A stretch of 64,000 nt of DNA from Bacteroidota bacterium (GTDB taxonomy: Bacteria; Bacteroidota; Bacteroidia; UKL13-3), in contig JAIXSO010000068.1 in the NCBI GenBank assembly GCA_027484685.1, positions 1-64,000 on the forward strand, written 5' to 3'. How positions within the stretch are numbered: position 1 is the stretch's first letter; each line of letters begins with the position of its first letter. The translations under genes were made by a program, and so were the position numbers. The notes beneath the pieces were generated by a model, which searched no databases, had not been told where the DNA came from, and saw nothing but the letters and a program-made list of their open reading frames with translations. Shown here one piece after another: positions 31,261 through 38,564 of this stretch.

Positions 31261-34200
31261 TTATTCCTTTATAAATTTATTTATTATTTCTCCCTTATTT
31301 GATTTAAGTTTTAATAAATAAATACCTTGTTTGAAGCTAGATATGTCAATATCAGTTTCTGTAACACCATCTTCGTATTTCTTTTCATAAATTAGTTTAC
31401 CCATTAAATCATATATTATAATGTTGCTAATTTTCCCCTGTAACTCTTTGGAGGTAATATTTAGCTTGTCTTTTGCAGGATTTGGATATATTTCAATGCC
31501 CTCATTTTGTGTATTTATACCATTATTATTAACTGCTGTTGAATGTGTTTTTTGTAATCCAATATTGAAATTTGGATTAGGTTTATGCACATAACAAGGA
31601 TAGTAAAATTTTAATGAATCGGTAGTTACTGTTTTATTTGCTAATGCAATCTCTCCGTTTATATAACATTTCCACTCATTTACTAGTTTTATATTATTTG
31701 TATCTGTACTCCAAATCAATATACTATCTAATTTTTGAAGAGCTATACTATTTTGTTCAGCCAATTTATACAGTAAAACTTTATCAAAACTTATTCTGAA
31801 CTTCCAATTCATCCATGTGCTATCTGCCACACTATTATTTATTAGAGTGTTTTGTAAGTTTATAGTATTTGTAATATAATTATTTACGGTAATGTTGGGA
31901 GATACAGAAATGAGTTTTTTATTAACCATTAAAGCCAAGCAATGTAAAATTTTAACATAACTGTTTCTTTTTATTATCCTTTCATTTCTAGTTAAGTTTA
32001 AATTATTCGATTTTACAATATCACTAAATTCTGTAAGAATATCAAAATAGTTTTTCAAACTATCGTTGCTATTAAATTTAGTTATTGTTGAGCTAAAAGC
32101 CTGTGCAAAAGTCCTATTAGTAAAGCGATTTGTATTCAATATAATGCTTGTGTCTGATGAAGAATTTAACTGATTTCCAATATTTGAGCCTGTTTTACCT
32201 AAGCCAACTCCTCCGCCTCCGCCATCAGAATTAAATCCACAATAGGCATCTCTCATATTTATATATGATTGGTTAGCACTATTAATTGGATTATTATCAG
32301 TAATTGATACATTTCCATAACAAGGTATATCAAAAGTGTAAATATTATTATTAATTCTCCACTCGTTAAAATTAGCAAGAATACTATTGTTAACTATTGG
32401 TTGAGCACATGAAAGGCTGTTGATTCCATAAGTTGGCATAGATTCGTGGTCTGCATTATAGGCTGAATATCCTTCATCTAAATATACCGTTCCATTAGTT
32501 GATAATAACGACCATGTTTGTCCTTTAAAAATATTATAACCAGTACCTAATGGTACCGAACTAGATAAAAGTGCATTTTCAATATAAACTTCGTCAACAT
32601 AACTATTTAAAAAGTTATTACACTTTAGGTCTAACCAAACATTGTAAGCCCTTAAGTTAAAATCGTAGCCCATTATGGTAGATTTTTCAATTTTAAAATA
32701 ACTGTTTGTGCCTCCTGTAAAATTTATGCCAGTACCGTAGTTTGCTAAAGTACTACGATAAGCTTGAATATTACTAATATAGTTAAATCCTTCGCTTGCT
32801 TGTGCTACTACAAGAGTTGAACAGCGTTCACTTCCCCCATTTGTCCAATTAAAACTACCACCAATAGTTTTTAAAGCCAAGCCGCAATCGTAAAAACGGA
32901 CATTATTTAAATTAAGTTCTGAACTTGCCGAAATAGCCATATAACTAGTAATAGCTGTTTCAGCATTATCTATTCTAACGCCATTTATATTTTGACCTTG
33001 AGGATTTCCATTTAATTGAATACCTTTATGTTTTTGGGTAGATGCAGCAGTTTTATTAAAGTTACTGTTAGTAATATTTACCCCTTGTGCTAAAATATTT
33101 AAACCTGATTGATTTACAAATTCGCACTTGGCATCTTCTATTTTAAAGTTGGAAAGGGTTGAAGGTATTTGTAGAACCCCACCTTCTACCAATAGGCCAA
33201 TTATATTGTTACTATTACCTTTTATATAAATGGTATTGTTACCTAATGAGTTTATAACAGGTCCAGAAGCAGATTTTATAAAATGAACATAACCATTACC
33301 ACTTGTAGCAAAGGTGGCATTTTGTTCCATTTTTAATTCTCCTTCTATTACCAAAGCACCATTGGCATCTATTAAATTTACTATGGCTCCATTTTCTATA
33401 ATTAATTGTGCACCTTTTTGAATAATTAATTTACTGTTGGCATGTATTTTTAGCTCTCCTCCATTTCTAATTCTTAAAGAACTTCCAGCAGTTATATATA
33501 CCAAGGCCTTATTATTATTGGGTATATTATTGTTATCTCCAATTATAAATTTACCACCTGTATTAACTGTAACATTGGCATTATTACAATCACTAGTATA
33601 AATGCTTAAAGTTGTATTTGCGTCCGGCATCAAATCATTTACTGTTGAATAAAAATTTTTATAATTACCATTTACTTGAAAAACACCATTGTTATTTATA
33701 GTTATAGAATTCAATTTTCGTTGGTAAAAAGTAGCCATATTAAATGTGTTCCCATTGCTATTGGGTAAAGTACTTGCCAAATTGTACTCATTTTTTACCA
33801 ATTGGTCAAGCATCCATGCAGTGTTATCGTTATCTGGATAAACATGAGGTTCATTTACTCCTTGACCAGTTGTGTTAATTTTAGCATAATAGGCCTCAAA
33901 AGGTGTTTGGATTTGAAAAGTATTCATTTGTGGGATATTACCATTTACATCATAGAAATAATCAGTAGTTACACTTGGGTAGATAGCTAATGAACTAATG
34001 GTAGGAATAAAACAAGTTCTGCCACCATTGGTTTTATTGCTTACATCTGGTGTATACCCATCTTCACGTAATTTTTTATCTACTTTGTCAGCAAAATCAC
34101 CTACTCCTTTATGCGAGCCACCTGGTGCACCATCTAAATTGGCGCAATTACCTCCTGGGCAATTATAACTTTCAGTTACTCTCCAAGTTCTTAACCTGTA

Positions 34201-35940
34201 AATAGTATTCCAATTTGGAAACCATTCAGATTTAGAAAAAGCACCATTAAACACATGACCATTACCAACAGATTGCGATTTTACATTAAACTGGCCCCTA
34301 ATTGCACCTGCTGCATTGTACCTAACATCACAAATATTAGTGGCATGTCCAAACCCTTGTCCATTCGTTGTTATACTTCCATTAAGCATGGCAATTTTTC
34401 TAGGCTTTTCAGGAAATCCATATTGATTTAACGAACTAACTAAATTGTTTCTGTAACAATCTGGATTAAGCCAAGCACCATTTATTGTATAGCCTCTATG
34501 CCTTAATAGCATTTGCAATGCTGCTGGCGAGTTTACCTGATTTAAAGCATCTTCTGCTTCTGAATTAAAGTTGGCAAAAAAACCAATTCCTGCTTGCAAA
34601 CCAATAGGAATATTTGCACCATTATGCGGTGCATCAAATGAAGTCCAAAGCCTTACACAATGTGGCATATTGTTTTGTTCCATATATGCTAGTGCAAATC
34701 TACTTATTAATCCACCCATACTGGTTCCAACTAATACCATTTCTTCATTTCCTACTTTTTTTTGTTTTATTTCTTCTAATATTTTTATTAAAGCATAAGC
34801 ATTTTTTTGAACATAATCGCCTCCATTTTCAAAGTCTACTAAAATAACATCATATTCGTAAGGTGCAGACAAAAGTGTTAATAATAATGTAGGCATATAA
34901 GTTATATTAGGATAATCGTTTTTACCTGTTCTTCCATTAATACCCCCGCTACTAAATACATCCCAACCAAAATCACCGTAACGCTTAAAAGGTAAATCGT
35001 CTAACATTTTTGGATCAAATCCTTCTACAAATATTATAGGTTTTCTAATTTTATTATCTGCCCTAGCGTATGAATATTTTACATAATAGCGGGCTTTAGC
35101 GAATCTTCCTGTATTTATAGTGGCACAATTTGGCTTGTCATAACCTATATTACTTATAATTTCTGAAACATAATCTGCTTCTGTTATCGGGGTTCTGGCT
35201 TTTTTACCTAAACTAAACTTAGTAAGTACAAATGTATTGTTGGTAAAACTTATTTTTATTTCACCATTTATTATTTGGGCTTCACTTATGTTGTATTCTA
35301 TGGGTTGTTCGTTATAAATTGTTACAAAACCGTTACCTAAGTTTATTTCAATTTTACTTATTTCTAAACCTGAATTGTTATAAACTAAATTTTGGTTTAG
35401 TATAAATTTTATATTGTCCGCAGTGGTGCTTTCCATCAATACGCCTGCGGCATATAGGTTAAACTCTCTATAAGGATTCGGACTATAAGGATTGGTTTCT
35501 ACTAATTGACTATCGTTGTTAAATCCAATCCATCCGCTATCTATTGCTTCTGGTAAAAACTCATTGTATTTACTTAGAATTATAGTTAAAGGATGATAAT
35601 TATTAACTATATAATAGTTAGCAATGCTATCTATTTTGCTAAGTTCTACTGAAGCATTTTTGTCGCCTTGTAGATAGGCATTTTCTTGTTGCCAAATTAA
35701 TTGACGTAATTTACCGGCTGTGGCAGTATCAGCACCACTATTTCCGGTAAAGTTATAAACGTTTAGGTCAGCATTTGCTTTGTCGTAAAGATAGCCCGTA
35801 TTTATTCGGGTGCTACTTTTAAGTGGCGCAAACTGATGATGAATTTTTTGCCTAAATGTTACAGAATCCTGTGCATTGGCAAAAAAATTGAGCGCAAGTA
35901 TACACATACCTGCAAATACAAGTTTAATTTTTAATTTCAT
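31261..35940 (-). CDS. Large secreted multidomain protein: alpha/beta-hydrolase (lipase/PGAP1-like), probable beta-helix region and T9SS sorting domain
   Basis: Signal peptide; nucleophile elbow MVLVGTSMGGLISRFALAYME; repeated beta-helix-like central region; IYPNPAKDKLNITS C-terminal domain. Confidence 0.8.
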   Translation of the reverse strand: MKLKIKLVFAGMCILALNFFANAQDSVTFRQKIHHQFAPLKSSTRINTGYLYDKANADLNVYNFTGNSGADTATAGKLRQLIWQQENAYLQGDKNASVELSKIDSIANYYIVNNYHPLTIILSKYNEFLPEAIDSGWIGFNNDSQLVETNPYSPNPYREFNLYAAGVLMESTTADNIKFILNQNLVYNNSGLEISKIEINLGNGFVTIYNEQPIEYNISEAQIINGEIKISFTNNTFVLTKFSLGKKARTPITEADYVSEIISNIGYDKPNCATINTGRFAKARYYVKYSYARADNKIRKPIIFVEGFDPKMLDDLPFKRYGDFGWDVFSSGGINGRTGKNDYPNITYMPTLLLTLLSAPYEYDVILVDFENGGDYVQKNAYALIKILEEIKQKKVGNEEMVLVGTSMGGLISRFALAYMEQNNMPHCVRLWTSFDAPHNGANIPIGLQAGIGFFANFNSEAEDALNQVNSPAALQMLLRHRGYTINGAWLNPDCYRNNLVSSLNQYGFPEKPRKIAMLNGSITTNGQGFGHATNICDVRYNAAGAIRGQFNVKSQSVGNGHVFNGAFSKSEWFPNWNTIYRLRTWRVTESYNCPGGNCANLDGAPGGSHKGVGDFADKVDKKLREDGYTPDVSNKTNGGRTCFIPTISSLAIYPSVTTDYFYDVNGNIPQMNTFQIQTPFEAYYAKINTTGQGVNEPHVYPDNDNTAWMLDQLVKNEYNLASTLPNSNGNTFNMATFYQRKLNSITINNNGVFQVNGNYKNFYSTVNDLMPDANTTLSIYTSDCNNANVTVNTGGKFIIGDNNNIPNNNKALVYITAGSSLRIRNGGELKIHANSKLIIQKGAQLIIENGAIVNLIDANGALVIEGELKMEQNATFATSGNGYVHFIKSASGPVINSLGNNTIYIKGNSNNIIGLLVEGGVLQIPSTLSNFKIEDAKCEFVNQSGLNILAQGVNITNSNFNKTAASTQKHKGIQLNGNPQGQNINGVRIDNAETAITSYMAISASSELNLNNVRFYDCGLALKTIGGSFNWTNGGSERCSTLVVAQASEGFNYISNIQAYRSTLANYGTGINFTGGTNSYFKIEKSTIMGYDFNLRAYNVWLDLKCNNFLNSYVDEVYIENALLSSSVPLGTGYNIFKGQTWSLLSTNGTVYLDEGYSAYNADHESMPTYGINSLSCAQPIVNNSILANFNEWRINNNIYTFDIPCYGNVSITDNNPINSANQSYINMRDAYCGFNSDGGGGGVGLGKTGSNIGNQLNSSSDTSIILNTNRFTNRTFAQAFSSTITKFNSNDSLKNYFDILTEFSDIVKSNNLNLTRNERIIKRNSYVKILHCLALMVNKKLISVSPNITVNNYITNTINLQNTLINNSVADSTWMNWKFRISFDKVLLYKLAEQNSIALQKLDSILIWSTDTNNIKLVNEWKCYINGEIALANKTVTTDSLKFYYPCYVHKPNPNFNIGLQKTHSTAVNNNGINTQNEGIEIYPNPAKDKLNITSKELQGKISNIIIYDLMGKLIYEKKYEDGVTETDIDISSFKQGIYLLKLKSNKGEIINKFIKE

Positions 35941-35957
35941 AATTTAAAATTTATTGG

Positions 35958-36581
35958 TTAATAATTGATGGTTATTGAAATCGTGTCATGAGGTATGAAT
36001 TTTGCTTCTATTATTAGATTTTGGACTTCTACTTTTGTTGGATTTGTTAATAGTCTATTGAGTTGGTATCCTAATCCTTTTGCATTCGCCTCGCATTTTA
36101 AGCCGTAATATGTTGTATCGAGATCTAAATTGGCTGGTTGAGAAATTGAAGGAAAAATTGAATTTGCTTGAGAGGCGTAAACAATAACATCCGTCCATTT
36201 CTTTTCTTTGTTCATCAATCTCACATTCACAAAAGCTTCAGGTACAAGTTCTATGGTTTGGCTTTGTTTATATACATTGTCTTGTATATCGAATTCTTTG
36301 GAGTCAAAATAAGTGGCTTTTTTTGCACGTAGTAGTATAGCATCGGTTCGGTTAAAGTTAAAGTTTCCTTGGCTATCGGTTAGCTGTTCGCCAACTAACT
36401 TGTATGTAGGGTTAAAAAAATCGCCTTCGGTTTTATAAAGTGTAACATATACATTTGCAAGTGGTTGTTTGGTTACTGCATCTATTACTTTTCCTTTAGC
36501 AATTGGCCGTGGATTGTTGTTTTCTTTTTCACAACTTAGCGACAAGCTAATTATCGCAATGAATAAAATTTTCAATTTCAT
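35958..36581 (-). CDS. Lipoprotein with carboxypeptidase-regulatory-like domain
   Basis: Lipobox SLSLSCEK; GKVIDAVTKQPLANVYVTLYKT. Confidence 0.65.
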   Translation of the reverse strand: MKLKILFIAIISLSLSCEKENNNPRPIAKGKVIDAVTKQPLANVYVTLYKTEGDFFNPTYKLVGEQLTDSQGNFNFNRTDAILLRAKKATYFDSKEFDIQDNVYKQSQTIELVPEAFVNVRLMNKEKKWTDVIVYASQANSIFPSISQPANLDLDTTYYGLKCEANAKGLGYQLNRLLTNPTKVEVQNLIIEAKFIPHDTISITINY

Positions 36582-37188: not shown

Positions 37189-37279
37189 AATTTTTGATTT
37201 TTTATTATTTCAAATATTGGTTTAAATAGGCTTAATTTTTTATTCTTTTTCAATAATTTTCAGTAAATTAAACACATGA

Positions 37280-37379
37280 TTTATTGTTTTTGTATAAAAT
37301 TATCAATTAGTGGTTATTGGTTTATTGTTTTTGTATAATTTTTAATTAAAATTGTTTTGAATTTATACAAAAACAATAA
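37280..37379 (+). promoter_or_regulatory. Repeated 17-18 nt motif (two direct copies, one inverted) in the leader of the regulator gene
   Basis: TTTATTGTTTTTGTATAA at 37280-37297 and 37321-37338; inverse TTATACAAAAACAATAA at 37363-37379 touching the ATG. Confidence 0.8.
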
Positions 37380-38356
37380 TGAATAATTTATTACTTCAAC
37401 AAAACTTGTTTCAACTCATAAAATCAAAATTGAATAAGGAAGCTAATTTGGCTAAAGTAATAGCTGAAACGCTAAATGTAAGTATAGATGCAGCTTATAA
37501 AAAAATAAAGGGCGAACGCCTGATAGATATGAGCGAATTACAAGTATTATTAGCTGAGTTTAAAATACCCATAGCCGATATTGATACTGCAAATACCTAC
37601 AATAGGGTTTGGTTTAACTTTAAACCAATTAATGGCATTGACTTTACCTTCAAAGATTATTTAAAACAAATGGTAAATAATTTAAATTGGCTAATAAACA
37701 GTAATGTAAACTACATTATTTATTCGGCTAAAGAGGTACCTATGTTTTATAATTTTATGTTTCCAGAATTAGGTTGTTTTAAATCGTTTGTGTGGCAAAA
37801 AAGTATATTAAATTTACCTAACCTAAACGCACATCAATTTGATATTTATGACCTTGATAATGAAATAATAGAATTAGGCAGTACCATATACCAACTGTAT
37901 AATAAAATTAGGAGTAAAGAAATTTGGAATTTTGAAACAGTTAATTGTACCCTCAAACAAATTGAATATTATAAACTAAGTGGTTTATTTGCCAATGAAG
38001 ATAGTTTGAAGATGGTTACAAATCAGTATAAACAATTGATTAATCATATTGAATTACAAACCCGAAGAAGCAAGAAAATTAATTTAATTAGCAAACAAGA
38101 AGAAGCTCTTTTTGACCTATATCATAACGAACTTATTTTGGGTGACAATACTGTACTTATTCAGTTTGAAAACTCACAAATGGCATTTATTACACCTAAT
38201 GCTGTTAATTCATTTACCAGTAATCATTTAGAGGTTACCAATTATATAAATTCAAATTTAAAAACTGTGTTGGATGCTTCTATAAGAATGAACAGGCAAA
38301 ACGATAAAGTGATAACCCCTTTTTTTGAAAAGATTAAACTAAATCTCACCATTTAA
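37379..38356 (+). CDS. Putative transcriptional regulator with N-terminal helix-turn-helix-like region
   Basis: NLAKVIAETLNVSIDAAYKKIKGERLIDMSELQVLLAEFKI resembles a Cro/C1-like HTH. Confidence 0.55.
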   Translation: MNNLLLQQNLFQLIKSKLNKEANLAKVIAETLNVSIDAAYKKIKGERLIDMSELQVLLAEFKIPIADIDTANTYNRVWFNFKPINGIDFTFKDYLKQMVNNLNWLINSNVNYIIYSAKEVPMFYNFMFPELGCFKSFVWQKSILNLPNLNAHQFDIYDLDNEIIELGSTIYQLYNKIRSKEIWNFETVNCTLKQIEYYKLSGLFANEDSLKMVTNQYKQLINHIELQTRRSKKINLISKQEEALFDLYHNELILGDNTVLIQFENSQMAFITPNAVNSFTSNHLEVTNYINSNLKTVLDASIRMNRQNDKVITPFFEKIKLNLTI

Positions 38357-38378: not shown

Positions 38379-38564
38379 TCATTTCTTAAACCCATAAGGA
38401 CAATGTTTGCAGCCGCTATTGCAGCAATAGCCACGTAGTTTATGGTATAGTTCGGTAAATACCATATAACCATTTTCATTGTAATAAAAATGAGTGCCTT
38501 CTTTTAAATCACTCCTTTTGGGAATATTACTTTTGGTAATTAATGTTTTAATTTTCGATTCCAT
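38379..38564 (-). CDS. Small Cys-rich protein (DUF5522-like)
   Basis: YMVFTELYHKLRGYCCNSGCKHCPYGF. Confidence 0.75.
   Translation of the reverse strand: MESKIKTLITKSNIPKRSDLKEGTHFYYNENGYMVFTELYHKLRGYCCNSGCKHCPYGFKK

Follow-up and report, generated by a model that had tools for sequence, protein, structure and literature searches.

Control of a helix-turn-helix (HTH) regulator over its own gene through several phased operators is already known, the lambda CI repressor and the C proteins being described cases. In the lambda and P22 CI-Cro systems three graded imperfect dyads (OR1–OR3) are occupied by dimers that make cooperative contacts, and graded multi-site arrays upstream of the promoter are also known at self-activating regulators. 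To our knowledge, few transcription factors of the phylum Bacteroidota have a known binding site. The locus considered here lies in a window of 64,000 nucleotides (the whole stretch of DNA that was analysed) and consists of a Cro/C1-type regulator gene, a divergent lipoprotein operon and, between the two, a row of short related motifs (Table 1). The pattern of these motifs, read from sequence, makes it highly probable that they are phased DNA operators for autoregulation of the adjacent gene, probably by repression, with cooperative binding of the regulator.

Table 1. Features of the regulator locus (positions in the window; centres relative to the regulator ATG; L051, nearest homolog of the regulator)
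Feature	Position	Strand	Remarks
Second divergent gene, putative lipoprotein, carboxypeptidase-regulatory-like domain	35958–36581	−	
Divergent putative lipoprotein gene, 200 aa	36586–37188	−	first of the divergent operon
Conserved block around TTTCAAATATTG	37211–37222	−	10/12 kept in L051
Probable weak fourth site, TTATTCTTTTTCAATAA	37240–37256	+	centre −131; 15/17 kept in L051
Putative operator copy 1, TTATTGTTTTTGTATAA	37281–37297	+	centre −90; 16/17 kept in L051
Putative operator copy 2, TTATTGTTTTTGTATAA	37322–37338	+	centre −49; 16/17 kept in L051
Candidate −7 box, TTGTTTTG, 7/8 of TAnnTTTG	37352–37359	+	−27, between copies 2 and 3; weak match
Putative operator copy 3, TTATTGTTTTTGTATAA, inverted	37363–37379	−	centre −8; 17/17 kept in L051
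Regulator gene, 325 aa, N-terminal Cro/C1 (XRE)-type HTH	37379–38356	+	

A preliminary description of this DNA had reported a motif present twice in direct orientation, 41 nt apart, and once inverted onto the first base of the ATG, and our coordinates agree with it. The 18-mer TTTATTGTTTTTGTATAA is found at 37280–37297 and 37321–37338, both on the forward strand and 41 nt apart from start to start, and its inverted copy at 37363–37380 matches at 17/18 positions, while all three copies contain the 17-mer TTATTGTTTTTGTATAA without mismatch, the inverted one ending at 37379, the A of the ATG. The fourth site lies 41 bp upstream of copy 1, on the side of the divergent gene, and the centre-to-centre spacing across the four sites is 41/41/41 bp, the inverted copy included; both points are additions to the preliminary description. 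Several related dyads thus adjoin the regulator's own gene at this locus. In the genome of 4,525,610 bp there are three exact matches to TTATTGTTTTTGTATAA, all of them in this leader, against 0.034 copies expected genome-wide under a second-order Markov model derived from a sample of the genome; when the leader was shuffled 300 times with its dinucleotides preserved, three copies never arose and two arose once. Each 17-mer is laid out as 6-bp half-sites flanking a T-rich 5-bp centre (TTATTG-TTTTT-GTATAA). The dyads are imperfect, with 4/8 half-site positions symmetric, random 17-mers averaging 2.2.

The array is conserved together with the regulator in other species. The nearest homolog, a 64% identical protein from the same genus (L002 = L051; contig CAISTO010000020.1, uncultured Bacteroidetes bacterium), has its sites centred at −131, −90, −49 and −9 from the ATG, that is, at 41/41/40 bp, so that helical phasing is seen in both leaders. 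When the two leaders are aligned, 49/51 positions are kept in the copies and 60/111 in the spacers (p = 2e-8). Two more distant homologs of about 30% identity, L032 and L035, which belong to another genus of the same family, have two sites 40 bp apart, one of them inverted, with the centres at −116 and −76, in the order inverted-then-direct and distant from the ATG. Loss of the motif in relatives had been named in the preliminary description as an outcome that would speak against a regulatory role, and the motif proved to be conserved. The overlap with the start codon fared less uniformly: it holds only loosely in L051, whose copy stops one base short of the ATG, and L032 and L035 lack it.

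The regulator belongs to an apparently uncharacterised family that is spread across the class, with relatives present in 143 of the 389 genomes sampled over it; in the open-access literature we found no paper describing the family or its operator, although others may exist. For 128 homologs we examined the 200 nt that precede the gene start. When one mismatch was tolerated in 12 positions, the 17-bp dyad TTTGCA-N5-TGCAAA was present upstream of 52/128 genes, in 30 cases in its perfect form, compared with 0.7 in shuffled upstream regions, 2/128 inside the same genes and 0 downstream of them. After removal of similar upstream regions the dyad remained in 39/108, and by our count the matches cover 17 taxonomic families of the class; in about half of the family members a recognisable dyad is absent. 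Second sites within 60 bp fall at 28–32 bp (20 cases), 38–41 bp (6) and 49–53 bp (7), and never at 33–37 or 42–48 bp, the null expectation being about 0.15 per spacing; the four remaining ones are at 22, 23, 25 and 57 bp. The three preferred ranges roughly match three, four and five turns of B-DNA, and the 41 bp of the window is in the four-turn group. Upstream of L017, L038 and L218 there are two or three dyads, some pairs about five turns apart, a pattern in the sequence which suggests that three-site arrays may also occur elsewhere in the family.

The motif of the window appears from these alignments to be a clade-specific counterpart of the family dyad. Two or more TTATTGTT cores were found upstream of 4/128 homologs, namely the window gene (L001), L002, L032 and L035, in which the paired sites are 40–41 bp apart, and exclusively the same four carry a DAAYKK recognition helix, the others having mostly DSAYRR. 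All four form one clade with long branches (SH-aLRT 99), and the change of the helix and of the operator should therefore be counted as one event and not as a repeated correlation; the proposed link between helix and operator comes from these four members, which are two pairs of relatives. The genome of the window also encodes a paralog, L026 (G000:C36, gene from about 72038), which has the DSAYRR helix and carries the site TTTGCATATTTTGCAAA upstream, at 71982–71998, so the two paralogs differ in their putative operators. Taken broadly, these observations would describe an undescribed, class-wide family of self-controlling HTH regulators whose rule is 17-bp dyads placed whole turns apart, and in which the clade of the window rewrote the operator as well as the helix that reads it (TTTGCA to TTATTG; DSAYRR to DAAYKK) and became insulated from its same-genome paralog, a natural and traceable change of protein–DNA specificity after duplication. 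We consider the chances of this wider picture to be about even.

In the protein of the window the HTH occupies residues about 1–66, with the recognition helix at 36–44 (IDAAYKKIK), and the C-terminal ~250 aa match no known families. When 45 aligned family members were compared with Pfam, BetR was matched in 36/45 and HTH_3 in 22/45 (E up to 0.1), the best-scoring member reaching E 2.5e-7 for BetR; the window protein itself missed the gathering cut-off of BetR (PF08667), with 13.5 vs 21.6 bits. The family sequence profile matched PDB 3op9 (E 4e-4). An AF2 model of residues 1–71 (mean pLDDT 78) places helices at 2–17, 21–32, 36–44 and 51–60, and its best-ranked structure matches, weak as their E-values are, come for the most part from XRE repressors and from controller proteins of restriction systems. 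Sequence profiles and model are consistent in predicting a Cro/C1 (XRE) HTH of some five helices, the third being the recognition helix. The model of the whole protein is of low confidence (mean pLDDT 46). Some single proteins gave weak matches to VanR-A or TusC models, which lay far under the cut-off and were disregarded.

The copies are taken to be DNA sites because of their helical spacing, their uniqueness, their conservation against diverged spacers and the rule seen in the family, and the adjacent protein is taken as their likely binder because of the family-wide association and of the matching change in helix and site. Dimers of Cro/C1-type HTH proteins would bind imperfect 17-bp dyads of this kind, and with three strong sites and one weak site spaced by 41 bp, about four turns, they may be expected to sit on almost the same side of the helix, where they can touch each other. 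The array would cover both the promoter and the start codon of the regulator gene, and would most likely repress its transcription, while the fourth site may extend the control to the divergent lipoprotein operon. The sequences themselves show the array with its spacing, conservation and uniqueness, the dyads of the family with their helical spacing, and the operator change in the clade whose recognition helix has changed; binding of this protein to the copies, repression, cooperativity and the promoter position are what we infer.

Repression is suggested by position. The main −7 box of the phylum is TAnnTTTG and the SM5 promoter motif of Flavobacterium psychrophilum is TAnnTTGY (PMC9723704, PMC6847099). 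Among boxes outside a motif copy, the best −7 candidate before the regulator gene is TTGTTTTG, and that of L051 is TAAATTGC at −33, also a weak match; with either as the −7 element the transcription start would fall in or just before copy 3. Through this copy the start context of the gene is also rich in A, positions −3 and −6 included, and an A at −3 is favourable for initiation in Flavobacterium johnsoniae (PMC6847099). In several homologs a TAnnTTGC box, which resembles the SM5 motif, lies 21–24 nt after the dyad, which would bring the −33 region under the dyad. In the upstream regions of the genome TAnnTTGC occurs 23 times vs 4 in the reversed control, and TAnnTTTG 74 vs 38; the enrichment of the former before genes resembles the SM5 class of F. 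psychrophilum. Training a promoter profile of 14 columns with 215 upstream regions gave a poor separation (150 real vs 86 reversed), and a scan for sigma-70-type promoters, a method unsuited to this phylum, gave no more matches than shuffled sequences.

The operators might also serve activation of the regulator's own gene, or a mixed control that depends on occupancy, as in lambda CI and the C proteins. This would be a variant of the operator explanation, and we regard it as unlikely while still giving it some weight: the graded upstream sites resemble those at self-activating regulators, and any promoter situated between copies 2 and 3 would have site 4 and copy 1 well upstream of it. Copy 3, however, would extend over the start codon and the probable start of transcription, which is a repressing position, and the dyads of the homologs overlap the likely −33 region.

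The preliminary description had offered two explanations of the array, operator sites for autoregulation and an RNA switch with alternative pairing partners. The first is strongly supported by the conservation in the ortholog, the class-wide architecture and the joint change of operator and helix. In the second, a transcript starting upstream of copy 1 would hide the start codon by pairing of copies 2 and 3, with copy 1 as the competing partner. We verified the pairing that it requires: copies 2 and 3 can form a hairpin of 17 bp with a 24-nt loop (37339–37362), which is found on paper over the start region in both species, with RNA z-scores of −4.3 (window, folded from copy 2) and −4.1 (L051), and initiation in Bacteroidetes is sensitive to structure over the start codon (PMC6847099). 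In spite of this, such a switch now seems quite improbable. The two changes in copies 1 and 2 of L051 have no compensation in copy 3, few as the sequences are, and an exact spacing of 41 bp with diverged spacers would be needless for RNA. The distant L032 and L035 do not have this layout, their sites being inverted-then-direct and far from the ATG, and the operators of the family are single dyads at variable distance from the gene and with helical spacing. Copies 2 and 3 enclose the candidate −7 boxes, and 5′ UTRs in a flavobacterium have a median length of 24 nt (PMC9723704); with a start downstream of copy 2 the hairpin could not form in the transcript. A comparison with Rfam gave no match up to E = 1.

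The operator explanation leaves the question of which genes are served. No further exact copies were found in the same genome, a match with one mismatch at C10 lying within a coding stretch, and across 66 genomes paired cores at the spacing of the window resembled background, save at the four regulator loci. The role of the array thus seems confined to this intergenic region, with the regulator gene and perhaps also the divergent operon as its targets. The first divergent genes of the window and of L051 are not similar, but that of L051 is a homolog of the second divergent gene of the window (E 8e-11), and the pairing of regulator and lipoprotein is thus kept. The divergent operon may have its −7 region (AATATTTG, − strand) in the conserved block around TTTCAAATATTG. 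The strand that carries the divergent lipoprotein genes also encodes, downstream of them (31261–35940), a putative secreted protein of 1559 aa, whose C-terminal tail resembles type IX secretion signals. On the other side, a small DUF5522 protein (E 8.7e-22) is encoded at 38379–38564 (−), convergent with the regulator; this gene was not seen beside the L051 ortholog.

With an intergenic region common to both genes, the fourth site on the divergent side and lipoprotein genes divergent in both species, the sites might be bound by a different regulator, for example one acting on the lipoprotein operon. We hold this to be highly improbable, since L032 and L035 keep the type of site despite another upstream neighbour, the dyads go with the regulator family class-wide, and the site type tracks the recognition helix of the regulator. 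Chance repeats or remnants of a mobile repeat can be practically dismissed although the region is strongly AT-rich and the near-motif TTATTGTTTTGGTATAT is a dispersed repeat in the same genome, for 0.034 exact copies are expected in the whole genome, the sites are equally spaced, and the preservation of the copies in another species with diverged spacers already refutes this explanation. The near-motif itself is present about nine times in the genome (contigs C9, C24, C28 and C61) and seems to belong to an intergenic repeat scattered through it (L056, L063).

Operators for autoregulation being of a known kind, the more interesting part of these results is the rule in the family and the traceable change of specificity. 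Sequence alone yields a candidate operator for a family of this breadth and a prediction of which residues would read which bases; one genome offers a pair of paralogs with different candidate operators, and the spacing by whole turns is a rule open to direct test.

Among the described systems, RNA switches and attenuators that sequester the start codon share with this locus a stable hairpin that could cover the start codon and a competing upstream copy; unlike them, the leader has no Rfam match, no compensatory changes and probably no transcript over the array, and its layout is lost in distant relatives. The N-terminal HTH is akin to BetR and to HTH_3 (PF01381), as the matches within the family indicate, but the window protein stays under the BetR cut-off and its C-terminal part is without a family match. 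The C proteins, such as C.Esp1396I, are small XRE HTH regulators that likewise have tandem sites before their own gene, and they rank high among the structures matched by the HTH model, though with weak E-values. They are, however, of about 80 aa, with adjoining operators and in company with restriction genes, whereas the window protein has 325 aa and no adjoining restriction genes. In lambda and P22 the spacing is about 24 bp, against 41 bp or about four turns in the window, the family ranging from about three to five; we saw no phage genes near the locus, and the C-terminal ~250 aa have no counterpart among known families. The CI-Cro arrangement is nevertheless shared in plan: a gene for a Cro/C1-type HTH protein adjoins several short dyads, imperfect in symmetry and set between divergent genes, there are three sites with a graded match, and binding as dimers with cooperative contacts is presumed in the window as well.
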